From Deltaproteobacteria bacterium (GTDB taxonomy: Bacteria > Desulfobacterota > Syntrophia > Syntrophales > UBA2192): a stretch of DNA of 44,368 nt. This document shows, piece after piece, positions 16,931-25,267 of the stretch. The notes under the pieces were generated by a model. It made no database searches. It had not been told where the DNA came from and worked only from the letters and a program-made list of their open reading frames with translations. The stretch lies in contig JAAYEC010000024.1 of assembly GCA_012728915.1 (NCBI GenBank), positions 1 to 44,368 of the forward strand, written 5' to 3'. The position numbers and the translations under genes were made by a program. Numbering within the stretch: position 1 is the first letter of the stretch; every line of letters starts with the position of its first letter.

Positions 16931-17101
16931 TCAGGATACTCCAGAGGCAGCTTCTCCGATAATCTCAATGGACTTGACCAAGGACAGAACGAGCATCCTG
17001 TCGGTGTCCAAATCGTGGCGGGTTTTGTTCGTGGAAAATGCAATGGCATCTTTTGCGGCATCCAGCATGTGGCGCACGCGAACGAGATCAGCCTTCAGCA
17101 T
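16931..17101 (-). pseudogene. truncated HepT-like toxin (HEPN)
   Basis: ATG at 17101 opens 56 codons: MLKADLVRVRHMLDAAKDAIAF, then LVLSLVKSIEIIGEAASGVS and TGA. This is the N-terminal half of a HepT/DUF86 protein, up to the IIGEAA helix. The catalytic R-x4-H part should follow; instead the frame stops, while another frame continues with YPESLSYRNRVSSF, reminiscent of the missing region after a frameshift or deletion. The start overlaps the mntA-like gene by 14 bases. Without the RNase motif it cannot be a toxin. Confidence 0.65.
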
Positions 17102-17396
17102 ACTGGACCTCTGCAGTATTGAGAACCTCCTGTCGGAAATATCTGCTTAACTCCATCGGTGTCCGCAAGTCCACCTTGCGCCCCAGGATTCTGGAGAGTT
17201 CCATTTCCATTTCAGCAAGACGGAAGAAACCAATTGTCTGACCCGGTTTGAATTCCACCAGCACATCAACGTCGCTTGTCGGCTTGAAATCATCCCTGAG
17301 AACGGAACCGAAGAAGGAAAGCTTACGGATGTGATTCCTTTTGCAGAAAGAGTCGATTTCGTTCGCGGGGACGGATATGTGAATCTTTGTTTGCAT
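17088..17396 (-). CDS. MntA-like nucleotidyltransferase
   Basis: A 102-residue minimal nucleotidyltransferase. GS at 30-31 and D42-x-D44 (FFGSVLRDDFKPTSDVDVLVEF) are intact, and the C-terminal part keeps GRKVDLRTPMELSRYFR. Its HepT partner downstream on the same strand is truncated, so this antitoxin may be an orphan, able at most to act on other HepT proteins such as that at 10244-10567 (inference). The sequence is clearly different from the mntA-like gene at 10560-10850, so this is not a recent duplicate. It lies next to the terminator of the tRNA cluster. Confidence 0.82.
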   Translation of the reverse strand: MQTKIHISVPANEIDSFCKRNHIRKLSFFGSVLRDDFKPTSDVDVLVEFKPGQTIGFFRLAEMEMELSRILGRKVDLRTPMELSRYFRQEVLNTAEVQYAEG

Positions 17397-17486: not shown

Positions 17487-17563
17487 TGGCGCGCCCTCTA
17501 GGGCTCGAACCTAGGACCTTTGGATTCGTAGTCCAACGCTCTATCCAACTGAGCTAAGGGCGC
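17487..17563 (-). tRNA. tRNA-Arg (anticodon ACG)
   Basis: The minus-strand sequence folds as a cloverleaf: acceptor GCGCCCT with AGGGCGC, D arm AGCTCAGTTGG, anticodon loop CTACGAA in stem TTGGA/TCCAA, T arm CTAGG-TTCGAGC-CCTAG, encoded CCA end. Decodes CGU, and after inosine modification CGC and CGA. Last of three tRNA genes after serS. Confidence 0.95.
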
Positions 17564-17584
17564 GCGTGATTCGGTTGTAAAAAA

Positions 17585-17679
<95 letters not shown>

Positions 17680-17774
17680 GCGCTCGATCGGCCTGTGTAT
17701 TCTCACCCTCACCCGGCCTCTCCCGTCGAGGGAGAGGAGCAACGGCCTGGACGGGCAGGGTGCATGTTCTATTC

Positions 17775-17860
17775 TGGCGGAGGGAGCAGGATTCGAACCC
17801 GCGAACCTTTCGGTTAACGGTTTTCAAGACCGCCGCCTTAGACCACTCGGCCATCCCTCC
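17775..17860 (-). tRNA. tRNA-Ser (anticodon UGA)
   Basis: Acceptor GGAGGGA pairs with TCCCTCC, D arm GGCCGAGTGGTC, anticodon loop CTTGAAA, long variable arm TTAACCGAAAGGTTC, T loop TTCGAAT and encoded CCA. Decodes UCA and UCG. It is 68 bases downstream of serS, the enzyme that charges it. Confidence 0.95.
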
Positions 17861-21205: not shown

Positions 21206-21505
21206 TCAGGGCTGGATGACCTCCTGGAGGCGCGTCTCCAGCTCCCTGCGGGTCATCCCGCCGACGGTGATGGTCTTCCTGCGGGACTTTTCGCCAGCGG
21301 TGATCGTCAGGGCCGAGCGGCGGACCCCGAGAAGGCCGGCCAGGAACTCGATGCAGGCGCGGTTGGCCTTCCCCTCGACGGCGGGGGCCGCGAGGCGGAT
21401 CTTCAGGGCGTCGTCCCGGATGCCCGCCGCCTCGTTCTTCGAGGCCCCGGGTACCACGCGGACGTCGAACGACAATCCCTTCGATGTTTCCCTGATGGCG
21501 ATCAT
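21206..21505 (-). CDS. DUF167 (YggU) family protein
   Basis: A 99-residue protein with the DUF167 signature: VRVVPGASKNEAAGI, LKIRLAAPAVEGKANRACIEFLA, and TITAGEKSRRKTITVGG. The family is conserved in bacteria and beyond, with unknown role; in proteobacteria it is often encoded next to yggT, as here. Start ATG 21505 gives the family-typical length; the frame upstream is not conserved. It is 133 bases downstream of the DivIVA-type gene. Confidence 0.88.
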   Translation of the reverse strand: MIAIRETSKGLSFDVRVVPGASKNEAAGIRDDALKIRLAAPAVEGKANRACIEFLAGLLGVRRSALTITAGEKSRRKTITVGGMTRRELETRLQEVIQP

Positions 21506-21638
21506 GGGCTGCGGTCTTTGTCGGAAAGTCGTCCTGGGGCGGGTCAAAAAAGCCCGGATGCAGGACGTCCTTTGATGCAGAGGGTAAGAGGGTTTGAAGG
21601 GGAGACGGCGTTCCCCCCCCCGGTCACGTGCCCTGCGG

Positions 21639-23897
21639 TTACTGCACGCCGTCCCAGTCGGCGGATCCCTTCTTCATCGCCTCCAGCAGTTTCTCGTTGA
21701 AGTCCATGAAGGACTCGAAGTACTTCTCGAGCTGGTTCTTGATGTTGGAGAGCTTCTTGATCTCGCCGCGGAGGTGGTCCGCCTCGGAGCGGCCGGTGTT
21801 CACAGGGATGGGGATGTCGAGGCCCTTTTTCCAGGTCTCGAGCAGCTCAAGGTTGAAGGTGAGGAACGAGAAGAAGTCCTTCTCGTGCCAGGCCTTGAGA
21901 TTCTTGAGCTTCTCGATCTCCTCGGTGAGAAGCTCGACCTCGTTTCGCAGGGCCTGGAGGTTCTGCCCTGCGGCCTGCCCCTCGGCGGCATTCCTGGCCT
22001 TGGCCTGGTCGGTGTCCGCCTGGGCTTTTTTCAGGTACTCGTCGGCCCTGGCCTTCGCCTCGTCCAGCATCCGCTCCTGCTCCCTGCGGCCCTCCTCGGC
22101 GATCCGGGTCTTGAGCTCGCCCGCCTGGTTCTCGGCTTCCTTGAGGAGCCTCTCGGCCCGCCCCTTCGCCTCGGCCAGCAGGGCGTCGAGGGCCTTTTTG
22201 TTCTCCTCCTCGAGCTTGGCTTTGCGGGACTGTGCCTGGGCGGCGGCGTCCCTGAGGATCTTGTCGGCCTGAGCCTTCGCCTCGTCGATGAGGTCCCGGC
22301 CCTGTTTCTCGGCGTTCTTCAGGGCCTCTTCCCGCCATTGCCGGGACTGCTTTTCCGCTTCGGCCTTCGCTGCGGACAGGATCTGCTCGGTCTGTGCCTG
22401 CGCCTGGGTGAGCATTTCCTTCGTCTTCCTTTCCGCTTCCTTCGCCAGATCCTCCTGCAGGCGGGTCCGGTGGGTCTCGGCTTCGATCATGGTGCTGCTG
22501 ATGATGTCGTCGGCCTTCTTCCTAGCCTCGGCGAGGATCTCGACGGATTTCGTTTCCGCCTCCCGGGCCTTTTCGCGTGCCGCGAGGAGCCCGCCGGCCG
22601 CCTGCTCCTCGGCCTCCCGGATGATCGTCCCGGCCTTCTTCTGCGCGTCGGCGATGAGTTCATGGACAAGTGGGTCTGCCTCCCGCGACGGATCCTTCTG
22701 CTGGCTCCTCTGCCCGTCGGCCTCCCGCCTGGCCTCTTCCAGGATCGCTTCCGCCTCGGCCCGGGCCTTCGTCATCGCCTCCTGGCGCCTCTGCTCGAGC
22801 TCCCGGGCGAGGTTCTCTTCCTGCCTTTGCTTGAGCTCCCCGGCCGATCTCTCGGCGTCCCTGAGGATCTTCTCTGCCTGGGCCTGCGCGCCGGAGAGCA
22901 GCTCCGCGGCCTTCGGCTCGATGTCCTTTGCCTTTGCTTCGGCGTCCCTGAGAATCTTTTCCGCCTGCGATTTCGCCTCGGCGAGCACGGCCTTCGCTTT
23001 CGGCTCGATCTCCCTTGCGAATGCCGCCTGCTGCTGCTCCCTGAAGGCGGCGGCCTCGTCCCCCGCCTTCTTCCGAATCGCCTCGGCATCGGCCTTCGCC
23101 CGCTCGATTTCCTTTTTGACGTTCTCCGCGTTGCGGGCGGCGAGGTTCTCCGCTTCCCGGCCTGCGGCGTTGACGATGTCCCTGGCGCGGGCCCGGGCCT
23201 GCTCGATGATCTCGTCGGCCTGCGACTCCGCTCCTTCCAGGTTCAGCGTCTTTTCCAGGGCGGCCGCCTCGGTGCGGGCCTTCTCCAGGATCTGCTCCGC
23301 CTGGGCCCTCGCCTCGGCCGTGAGCCTGTCGGCCTCGGCGCGGTACTCGTCGCGGATGCGGGCCGCCACTTCGTCGCGCCGGGCGGTGGCCTCCTTGAGA
23401 AGTTCTTCGGCCTTGGCCTTCGCCTGGGCGACGGTGTTGTTGTAGTTTTCCTCGGCCTGGAGCTGCAGCAGCTGCGTCTTGAGCTGGTGGGCGCGGGCCT
23501 CCTCGAGCATCTGCCCGTACTGCTTTTCGAACTCCCTGGCACTGTCTTCCTTGACCTTGGCACGCAGCGCATCGGCCTCGGCCTTCGCCGCGCCGACCGT
23601 CTCCTCGGCCCTGGCCTTCGCGTCGGCGAGAATCTGCTCGACGTCCTTCCTGGCCTCGGGAGGGAGGTCGTCGCCCTTCTCCTTGCCGCCGAAGATCTTC
23701 TTGACCTTCAGGACGGTGAGCTTCTTTTCGAGGTCTGCGATGAGCTCCGAGAAGCGGGCATTCTGCTCGATCTGGCGCTCCATCTCCGCAGCCACGGCCT
23801 TCAGGTACGTTCCGACCTCTTCGGGGTCGTATCCCGTGAAGCCTTTCTTGAATTGCCGTTGCCGGACGTCTCTCGGGGAGATCTTCACAAACGCCAT
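21639..23897 (-). CDS. giant DivIVA-domain coiled-coil protein
   Basis: 752 residues. Residues 1-55 match a DivIVA N-terminal domain (ISPRDVRQRQFKKGFTGYDPEEVGTYL), which binds curved membrane. From about 70 to 640 comes an alanine, glutamate and lysine-rich coiled coil made of many approximate 11- and 33-residue units with recurring (A/Q)QAEKILRDAE, KAEADAIR, and EAKAQADKIL motifs. The last 100 residues are a different segment with LKAWHEKDFFSFLTFNLELLE, ending near SADWDGVQ. Normal DivIVA proteins have 150-250 residues. It starts three bases after the yggT stop and so is cotranscribed. A long rod linking membrane to division or wall machinery is plausible (inference). Repeat units make assembly error possible, but the frame is open throughout. 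Confidence 0.88.
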   Translation of the reverse strand: MAFVKISPRDVRQRQFKKGFTGYDPEEVGTYLKAVAAEMERQIEQNARFSELIADLEKKLTVLKVKKIFGGKEKGDDLPPEARKDVEQILADAKARAEETVGAAKAEADALRAKVKEDSAREFEKQYGQMLEEARAHQLKTQLLQLQAEENYNNTVAQAKAKAEELLKEATARRDEVAARIRDEYRAEADRLTAEARAQAEQILEKARTEAAALEKTLNLEGAESQADEIIEQARARARDIVNAAGREAENLAARNAENVKKEIERAKADAEAIRKKAGDEAAAFREQQQAAFAREIEPKAKAVLAEAKSQAEKILRDAEAKAKDIEPKAAELLSGAQAQAEKILRDAERSAGELKQRQEENLARELEQRRQEAMTKARAEAEAILEEARREADGQRSQQKDPSREADPLVHELIADAQKKAGTIIREAEEQAAGGLLAAREKAREAETKSVEILAEARKKADDIISSTMIEAETHRTRLQEDLAKEAERKTKEMLTQAQAQTEQILSAAKAEAEKQSRQWREEALKNAEKQGRDLIDEAKAQADKILRDAAAQAQSRKAKLEEENKKALDALLAEAKGRAERLLKEAENQAGELKTRIAEEGRREQERMLDEAKARADEYLKKAQADTDQAKARNAAEGQAAGQNLQALRNEVELLTEEIEKLKNLKAWHEKDFFSFLTFNLELLETWKKGLDIPIPVNTGRSEADHLRGEIKKLSNIKNQLEKYFESFMDFNEKLLEAMKKGSADWDGVQ

Positions 23898-23900
23898 CCG

Positions 23901-24203
23901 TCAGATCCTGAGCCTGAACGCCATCTGGAGCAGGCTGGGGACCAGGAAATATTGCAGGAACAGGATCGCCGCGATGACCACGGCGGGCGACAGGTCAATG
24001 CCGATGTTGCCCAGGGGGAGCCATCGCCGCACCGGCCGCAGGACCGGTTCCGTCGCCCGGTACAGGAACCGGACAATGGGATTGTAGGGATCGGGATTCA
24101 CCCAGGACAGAAGGGCTCGGATGATGATCACCCAGGTGTAGAGGCTCAGCGCTACGTCAAGAATCCGGGCCAGGGCCTCCAGTAAATTGGCCACGAGGAA
24201 CAT
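23901..24203 (-). CDS. yggT: YggT family membrane protein
   Basis: A 100-residue integral membrane protein with two hydrophobic segments (VALSLYTWVIIIRALLSWV and AVVIAAILFLQYFLVPSLL). Signature SWVNPDPYNPIVRFLYRATEPVLRPVRR is present. YggT proteins are linked to osmotic shock survival in E. coli and to cell division or cytochrome assembly by gene neighbourhood. It is transcribed with the DivIVA-type gene, and lies divergent from proC with 248 bases between. The intergenic region has a hairpin CCCGCATCGGTGCGGG (24282-24300) but no obvious promoter boxes that I would trust. Confidence 0.9.
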   Translation of the reverse strand: MFLVANLLEALARILDVALSLYTWVIIIRALLSWVNPDPYNPIVRFLYRATEPVLRPVRRWLPLGNIGIDLSPAVVIAAILFLQYFLVPSLLQMAFRLRI

Positions 24204-24451: not shown

Positions 24452-25267
24452 ATGAAGGCAAAGAAGATTGTCATCATCGGCGGGGGGAAGATGGGAGAGG
24501 TCATCGCCGCGGGGATCCTGAAGGCGGGCCTTGCCCAGCCCGGCAGTGTAACCGTGAGCGACATTGTGCCCGACCGGCTGGCCTACCTAAAGGGCAGGTA
24601 CGCCGTCGGGACGGCGCAGGACAACCGAAAGGCCGCCCGCGATGCCGACATCGTCATCCTGGCCGTCAAGCCGCAGGGGATCGGGGAGGTCCTCGAGGAG
24701 CTCGCGCCCGTCATCGACCGCAAAAAGCTTGTCGTCTCCATCGCGGCGGGCATCCCCATCCGGTTCATCGCCGAGCGCCTGAAGAAGGGCATACCCATCG
24801 TTCGGGTCATGCCCAACACGCCGGCCCTGGTGGGCGAGGGAGCGGCGGCGCTGGCGGCGGGCGAGGCGGCATCCGGGGCCGACCTGGCCACGGCGCGCGG
24901 GATCTTCGACGCCCTCGGCGTAACCGTCGTCGTGAAGGAAGACCTCATGGACACCGTGACGGGCCTTTCCGGGAGCGGCCCGGCCTACGGGTTCATCATC
25001 ATCGACGCGCTCTCCGACGGCGGCGTCCTCATGGGGCTGCCCCGGGATGTGGCCACGAAGCTCGCGGCGCAGACGCTCCTGGGGGCGGCGAAGCTCTACC
25101 TCGACAGCCTGAAGCACCCCGGGGAGCTCAGGGACATGGTGACGTCCCCCGGGGGGACGACGATCGCCGGCATCCGGGCCCTCGAGAAGCACGGGCTTCG
25201 GTCGGCCCTCATCCAGGCCGTCGAGGCGGCCACCCTGCGCTCGCAGGAACTGGGGAGGGGCAAATAG
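24452..25267 (+). CDS. proC: pyrroline-5-carboxylate reductase
   Basis: A 271-residue NAD(P)H-dependent enzyme that performs the last step of proline biosynthesis. Rossmann motif GGGKMG is at residues 10-15, then KPQ, VRVMPNTPALVGEG, GLSGSGPAY, and the P5CR signature MVTSPGGTTIAGI. Length is normal. ATG 24452 follows AGGAGGG. It commonly lies next to yggT, yggU and a DivIVA gene in one operon; here it is on the opposite strand. Confidence 0.95.
   Translation: MKAKKIVIIGGGKMGEVIAAGILKAGLAQPGSVTVSDIVPDRLAYLKGRYAVGTAQDNRKAARDADIVILAVKPQGIGEVLEELAPVIDRKKLVVSIAAGIPIRFIAERLKKGIPIVRVMPNTPALVGEGAAALAAGEAASGADLATARGIFDALGVTVVVKEDLMDTVTGLSGSGPAYGFIIIDALSDGGVLMGLPRDVATKLAAQTLLGAAKLYLDSLKHPGELRDMVTSPGGTTIAGIRALEKHGLRSALIQAVEAATLRSQELGRGK

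Follow-up and report, generated by a model that had tools for sequence, protein, structure and literature searches.

A long-form DivIVA with a non-heptad rod and a doubled C-terminal motif in one family of Syntrophales

The window analysed here is a stretch of 44,368 nucleotides of a Deltaproteobacteria bacterium (assembly GCA_012728915.1, contig JAAYEC010000024.1), and it encodes a DivIVA-type protein of 752 residues at positions 21639..23897 of the minus strand (stop codon 21639-21641). The locus raises the question of whether so long a chain is a DivIVA at all, whether its length is genuine, and what the length could serve in a Gram-negative cell. The host is presumably Gram-negative, judging from its Syntrophales-type relatives (Syntrophales within Thermodesulfobacteriota). 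In the original prediction, made from the sequence alone, the coordinates, the 752-residue length and the 3-base gap after yggT were correct on re-check of the sequence, and the strand was absent. The favoured answer, to which a probability of about 0.6 was assigned, is that we see here a true DivIVA whose rod was expanded, to ~88 nm if collinear, and whose oligomerisation tail was doubled; it would act as a deep polar or septal scaffold not operating via Min.

Domain, rod and tail

The N-terminal DivIVA domain (residues 1-66, 23700..23897, minus strand) was matched by profile PF05103 with 51.8 bits against a cut-off of 28 (E=1e-13, residues 6-117), in one stretch only of the whole protein, and by the NCBIfam profile DivI1A_domain with 33.2 bits against 22. 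Among the PDB matches of the first 66 residues (2wuj, 7o39 and 6lfa), the best was B. subtilis DivIVA 2wuj with E=1.2e-4. The PF05103 and 2wuj matches bear out the normal N-terminal domain of the original prediction. The loop GFTGYDPEEV carries GYDPEEV at residues 22-28, with coiled coil after it, in agreement with GYDxxEV; Gly29 stands where the longer pattern in the literature has D/N. In the alignment with 2wuj, the Phe of the loop tip is retained as F20 and the Arg position is occupied by Thr21, which we take to be the counterparts of the B. subtilis membrane-loop residues F17 and R18. The latter residue is named in PMC7186360. The domain is followed by a Gly/Pro-rich break at residues 67-84 (KIFGGKEKGDDLPPEARK; 23646..23699, minus strand), which was located on the map of Gly and Pro and is non-helical at 70-79 in the low-confidence model described below.

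The rod occupies residues 85-646 (21960..23645, minus strand) and is a non-heptad coiled coil of ~560 residues of Ala, Glu, Lys and Arg, with an Ala content of 22%. Over residues 76-660, the hydrophobic periodicity had a power of 32.1 at the mean period of 3.69 residues per turn, compared with a maximum of 12.1 in 100 shuffles; the power was 0.6 at the heptad value of 3.5 and 5.8 at the pure hendecad value of 11/3. The very long coiled coil that had been predicted was thereby confirmed. Periods of 3.685-3.71 were determined in all seven long-form sequences tested, each exceeding its 60 shuffles; G007 entered this set as a partial frame, G002 ended before the second C-terminal motif and G004 was used without its X run. 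In segments of 110 residues the period was 3.62-3.73 over residues 26-675 and ~3.45 at the C-terminal motifs. The top lags of residue identity were 41, 11, 70, 15, 81, 55, 66 and 26, all of which are compatible with sums of 11- and 15-residue units. From the 11- and 33-residue units proposed originally, the former fits, with a marginal z of 4.3 for lag 11, and the latter is unsupported, lag 33 being outside the top 20 of the 119 lags tested. Hendecads give almost straight coiled coils and pentadecads right-handed ones, and Ala is favoured in the core of hendecad dimers (PMC9858780). At the DNA level, a tandem repeat with a period of 87 bp (1.9 copies, 76% matches) was detected within the rod at 22852..23018 (strand not assigned). 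A hidden Markov model (HMM) built from the middle coil of eight distant DivIVAs of the phylum had no match in the window protein.

A full-length AlphaFold2 model from four sequences was helical nearly throughout, at low confidence (mean predicted local distance difference test score, pLDDT, 59; predicted template modelling score, pTM, 0.28). The modelled rod helices span residues 80-217, 223-398, 409-559 and 567-690, and breaks were seen at 70-79, 218-222, 399-408, 560-566 and 691-702. With a helix rise of 0.148-0.15 nm per residue, the 589 residues of the four modelled helices would extend over 87-88 nm if collinear.

The C-terminal end was analysed with an HMM of the 38 C-terminal residues of eight short DivIVAs from other families of the order (eight of the ten order loci tried, L065 and L067 having been dropped by a text pattern; two same-genus pairs are included). 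The short DivIVAs end with one such motif and the window protein carries two: copy 1 at residues 657-691 (21825..21929, minus strand) with 30.5 bits and copy 2 at residues 707-740 (21678..21779, minus strand) with 44.6 bits, the best of 1000 shuffled window copies reaching 11.9 bits. Two matches, of 36.3 and 43.2 bits, were also obtained in the C-terminal part of the G007 protein. The distinct C-terminal segment of the original prediction is present, but in reality it consists of two copies of the end motif of short DivIVAs; by its sequence, the segment repeats twice the tail found in the order's DivIVA. The tie to DivIVAs beyond the order appears weaker. The motif aligned near the C-terminal end of the eight distant phylum DivIVAs, with 15-20 bits for L053, L055 and L054, the shuffle level for L057 (12.3 bits) and L050 (9.9 bits), and non-significant 4-7 bits for L052, L051 and L056. 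A model of the C-terminal 106 residues from three sequences consisted of two helices with a 9-residue loop between them (mean pLDDT 72, pTM 0.48). In the PDB, the C-terminal 103 residues matched designed TIM barrels with whole-sequence E down to 7e-6; no individual stretch passed, those reported having i-Evalues of ~77 or more, and these matches were attributed to chance or composition, as were the weaker ones to tropomyosins.

Length and evolution among relatives

Lengths were compared in a family set of eight genomes, seven of the source genus (G000, the source, and G001-G006) and G007 of a second genus; "long" is used relative to the family, order and phylum rows compared here. The frames from Met were 795 residues in G002, 829 in G003, 887 in G004 (52 of them X), 870 in G005 and 865 in G006. 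The gap-free whole proteins had 752-870 residues, the window copy being the shortest of six. The long form was found in six of the seven genus genomes. It lies on a single contig in six of the eight family genomes, of which G002 has a broken end and G004 an X run, and in two parts in a seventh. In G002 (L043:542-775), conserved sequence is lost from the long frame ahead of the second C-motif, which continues in another frame, either through a sequencing error or through a real truncation. In G007, a 512-residue N-terminal part stands at one contig end and a 157-residue C-terminal part with both motifs at another; together they probably represent one gene of ~660 residues. G005 is assembled in 5 contigs and carries the long divIVA on a contig of 877 kb. 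In G001 (77% complete, 430 contigs), no long form was detected by the profile or the C-terminal search.

Outside the family, matches beginning at the profile start occurred in six order genomes (G040, G028, G048, G021, G037 and G057), in frames of 152-176 residues, and the remaining order rows were weak coil-only matches in frames of 143-240 residues. The C-terminal search of 155 order genomes resulted in 16 positives, seven in the family and nine others with frames of 151-176 residues; G040 was not among them. In the phylum, a DivIVA match was found in 194 of 394 genomes (168 over the cut-off), and among the matches listed none outside the family exceeded 320 residues. Re-searching of 28 phylum genomes, many with weak best matches, gave a longest over-cut-off frame of 373 residues; frames of up to 793 residues had coil matches below the cut-off only. 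The original prediction had put the protein at about three times the usual size. The oversize was confirmed and its extent had been underestimated, as the order's frames of 151-176 residues are 4-5 times shorter than 752. It was also said that the proposal would fall if relatives had a 200-residue form and the extra length proved to be an artefact of assembling repeated DNA. The short forms were found in other families and the long form in five of the six other genus genomes, and the length is regarded as genuine.

The short- and long-form loci were compared as well. The short-form locus L048 consists of Sua5, RNase E/G, proC, yggT, divIVA and murJ, and L047 has the same set with murJ not in view; in both genomes it is the same locus as that of the long form. 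In the long-form locus of G005, murJ and DivIVA were detected by Pfam, yggT and proC by translation only. The length was most likely gained at an orthologous locus, since the short- and long-form loci share their gene set.

Selection on the parts was estimated by pairwise NG86 ratios of non-synonymous to synonymous substitution (dN/dS) between the window gene and four of the five other orthologs, G004 being left out. The values were 0.07-0.15 for the N-domain, 0.19-0.62 for residues 67-120, 0-0.044 for a conserved rod island at residues 121-166 (23400..23537, minus strand), 0.28-0.41 for residues 167-646 and 0.02-0.19 for the C-motif pair (48 codons only in G002). Five internal indels of 77, 41, 29, 6 and 1 residues were counted among the orthologs, the X run of G004 being left out; the first three correspond to approximately whole turns (20.9, 11.1 and 7.9). 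The 41-residue tandem copy of G005 is identical in 118 of 123 bases, which by the sequence shows a recent event and growth by duplication. The N-domain, the C-motifs and one island are tightly held, and the rod, which drifts and has blocks added or lost, behaves as a periodic spacer growing by duplication.

Further DivIVA-domain genes were detected in the same genomes. A paralog with a frame of 325-337 residues is present in all seven genus genomes (in G001 the frame has 434 residues, in G003 it occurs in two places) and was not found in G007. The copy of the source genome (L040:5096-6073, G000 contig 42; 325 residues) is its second DivIVA-domain protein; it had no match to the C-motif HMM, and the period of its coil, 3.635, was not significant, with a power of 8.4 against 10.9 as the maximum of the shuffles. 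A third DivIVA-domain protein with a 648-residue frame and a period of 3.71 was observed in one of the eight family genomes (L037:5161-7107, G004 contig 35). In a tree of 26 sequences and 60 N-domain residues, midpoint-rooted without outgroup and with three of eight paralog places used, all seven long forms clustered with three of the paralogs and with the third gene, apart from the short and phylum forms with a local support of 0.993; the support inside this cluster was weak, 0.5-0.71. Because the long forms and paralogs cluster together, the tree points to duplication of DivIVA-domain genes within the family. Among eight open reading frames (ORFs) scanned with Pfam near the G000, G005 and G004 paralogs, no known division gene was found. 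They include a PAS-LuxR regulator, an outer-membrane-type protein (Phenol_MetA_deg), a PEP-CTERM protein, an M23 peptidase and an AAA protein that carries a SPOR domain; for three ORFs beside the G000 paralog Pfam gave no match. In another family of the phylum (f114: G352, G367, G383 and G413), frames of 326-355 residues had two DivIVA-profile matches each, to overlapping profile parts, which perhaps reflect an independent duplication of coil or domain.

In the window itself, the minus-strand order is yggT (23901..24203; PF02325, E=5.3e-25), divIVA, and then yggU/DUF167 (21206..21547; PF02594, E=1.1e-24) and murJ downstream. The yggT stop and the divIVA start read TGA-CGG-ATG, and a possible ribosome-binding site, AGGA, lies 8 bases 5' of the ATG. 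proC (24452..25267, plus strand; PF14748, E=2.6e-42) is divergent from the yggT-divIVA pair, and Sua5 completes the Pfam matches of the neighbourhood (proC, yggT, DUF167 and murJ being the others). The yggT context typical of DivIVA is present; yggT also adjoins divIVA in L047 and L048 (by Pfam) and in L035 (by translation). Elsewhere in the window, a small ORF at 17088-17396 (minus strand) resembles, by eye only, a minimal nucleotidyltransferase (GSVLRDDFKPTSDVDVLVEF). The ORF at 17498-17854 (minus strand), starting MAEWSKAAVLKTV, is presumably the kind of spurious translation often found across tRNA genes.

Partners and explanations

Partner proteins were searched in 31 genomes. MinC_C and MinE were each found in none of the eight family genomes and in one of the 31, the order mate G025 in both cases; the control genomes were positive. 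SepF was found in none of the 31, the eight of the family included. A Bacillus-type Min role for the long DivIVA is therefore unlikely. ParB_N was present in 26 of 31 genomes. MreB_Mbl matches were obtained in all 31, strong in 29 and weak in G001 and G014, and polar growth through loss of MreB was accordingly rejected.

According to the scaffold reading, an ancestral short DivIVA with a single N-domain, a short coil and a single copy of the C-terminal motif would have lengthened within one family as coiled-coil blocks of 11- and 15-residue units were duplicated in frame, and the motif would have been doubled. Where the membrane is curved, at poles and septa, the N-domain would dimerise in parallel as usual. 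The chains would continue as a two-stranded rod, nearly straight to slightly right-handed, and the paired C-motifs would link dimers by their tails, bind clients, or both. The resulting lattice would reach deep into the cytoplasm rather than hug the membrane, the rod giving reach and the doubled tail extra capacity for oligomerisation or docking. The clients are probably not Min, because no Min proteins or SepF were detected; the likeliest are on the chromosome/ParABS or divisome side, because of the precedents of DivIVA-ProC-ParA3 in Bdellovibrio and Scy-ParA in Streptomyces. For the long DivIVA we infer that it binds the membrane, dimerises, joins tail to tail and has such clients, and its link to division or polarity, which the original prediction had suggested, would follow from family membership and the Bdellovibrio work.

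Several observations weigh against this scaffold. The replacement of R18 by Thr21 leaves membrane binding not assured, and residues 67-120 are not clearly constrained. The identity repeat is marginal (z of 4.7 for lag 41 and 4.3 for lag 11, with a 200-shuffle maximum of 4.31 over 119 lags), and two of the five indels, 6 and 1 residues, do not match whole turns. Since the models are weak, the continuous rod is deduced from the sequence; Gly and Pro near 70-80, 222, 299, 328, 395-409, 435 and 692-702 mean that it could be jointed. The surroundings of divIVA are the ordinary yggT/proC/yggU set and point to no client, and ParB_N was not found in three of the eight family genomes (present in five). 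Finally, a heading of PMC11025332 gives Bdellovibrio cell morphology as independent of DivIVA, contrary to PMC7186360, and so speaks against a strong role in division in that organism.

The rod could instead be a nearly neutral spacer from replication slippage, in a protein doing the job of a 160-residue DivIVA with length of no function. The variation in length among gap-free whole proteins, the fastest drift in the rod (in one pair up to the 0.62 of residues 67-120) and the visible recent duplication in G005 are in favour of this. However, all six genus sequences found are long, as is that of the second genus (~660 residues if its pieces are one gene), one non-heptad period dominates the whole rod, dN/dS stays below 1 and the doubled C-motif is common to both genera, so that functionless length is considered rather improbable. 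Less probable still is a self-assembling cytoplasmic cytoskeleton similar to intermediate filaments, in the style of FilP and Scy, with polar anchoring secondary or lost. It would agree with the Ala-rich non-heptad rod, which resembles that of FilP/Scy (PMC9858780), as well as with the weak NCBIfam Scy match, the further DivIVA-domain genes and the replaced R18, but the Scy score of 27 bits is far below the cut-off of 1040, the order's short DivIVA has the same locus and C-motif, and the N-domain is strongly conserved.

An assembly artefact is hardly credible. There is repeated DNA within the gene, the G004 rod contains an X run and the C-terminal frame of G002 is broken; still, independent assemblies agree, including the 5-contig genome, and the frames are open through the rod, with the window copy the shortest. 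The recruitment of MinCD to the poles for division positioning, as in Bacillus, is the textbook role of DivIVA, and the absence of MinC_C and MinE matches in the family, with positive controls and both proteins in the order mate, leaves practically no room for it. Beyond the scaffold reading lies a doubtful extension, that the family independently built its own Streptomyces-like polar coiled-coil set by duplication of DivIVA into two, and in one species three, DivIVA-domain proteins. In such a set the ~90-nm rod of the founding DivIVA, with its doubled docking tail, would serve as tether or ruler between the membrane at the pole and the chromosome or divisome, in cells without detected Min proteins or SepF, and the reach would be tuned from species to species as repeat blocks are gained and lost. 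As it stands, the change of DivIVA from ~150 to 750-870 residues within one Gram-negative family, with a doubled C-motif and no detected Min system or SepF, offers a natural experiment on how rod length and C-terminal valency affect a polar scaffold.

Comparison with known systems

The order's short DivIVAs (e.g. L047 and L048, 148-149 residues from Met) have the same N-domain and C-motif as the long form and differ in their single C-motif and short coil; the residue before GFD is Arg in them, whereas the long form has Thr. B. subtilis DivIVA (2wuj) shares the N-domain by sequence and works with the Min system. The Min partners of B. subtilis were not detected in the long-form family, and its R18 is Thr here. 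It has 164 residues (numbered to E164) compared with 752, arranged as N-domain, coil and C-terminal oligomerisation region (PMC12585849).

Membership in several described groups was tried and rejected. The NCBIfam profiles resulted in 27 bits against a cut-off of 1040 for Scy, 27.1 against 91 for GpsB and 84.7 against 260 for the Wag31 equivalog, whose best stretch was in the rod. PolyDIV proteins, with two to eight DivIVA-like domains per chain, are excluded by the single PF05103 stretch; they are alike in the repeat-driven expansion of a DivIVA-like protein (PMC9858780) but repeat the DivIVA domain itself, whereas the long form repeats the coil and keeps the domain single. Matches to V-ATPase and ATP-synthase b were below cut-offs in the window protein and were put down to the composition that coiled coils have in common; ATP-synt_B was just over its cut-off in the G005 ortholog, 28.2 bits against 28. 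A phage origin was rejected, as no PHROG match was obtained at E up to 1e-4.

There are few studies on DivIVA in Gram-negatives (PMC7186360), and the long hendecad rods of FilP and Scy are described as actinobacterial (PMC9858780), the main text of the latter paper containing neither "Gram-negative" nor "proteobacteria" nor any word starting with "delta". By titles and abstract openings, no giant DivIVA in this lineage was found in the open-licence papers searched, which is not proof of absence.

The closest functional precedent, by analogy, is the DivIVA of Bdellovibrio bacteriovorus (Bd0464), which has in common with the long form a Gram-negative host, a substituted R18 and the lack of MinCD (PMC7186360). 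Homologs of proC and yggS lie in the same operon as its gene, two-hybrid links were reported from DivIVA to Bd0465 (ProC) and on to ParA3, and the accounts of this DivIVA drawn on here mention neither its size nor a giant rod (PMC7186360). The protein localises dynamically to the pole and, before division, to all septa and both poles (PMC11025332).

For the rod, the nearest likeness is with Streptomyces Scy and FilP, which also combine a DivIVA-like N-terminal motif with a long Ala-rich non-heptad rod (PMC9858780). Scy binds ParA by its long rod, in which a repeat of 51 residues in 14 turns gives 3.64 residues per turn (PMC3718342), as against the period of 3.69 and the doubled C-motif here. 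Scy and FilP are actinobacterial, stand in another genomic context, and Scy is without the N-terminal buttressing helix. The apparent gene duplication in the family parallels the DivIVA-FilP-Scy series, for which duplications and rod growth are placed in Actinobacteria (PMC9858780). The non-heptad rod is a resemblance to Scy and not descent: domain, locus and tail mark the protein as a DivIVA, and convergence accounts for its Scy-like rod. It is real, well-formed and family-wide.

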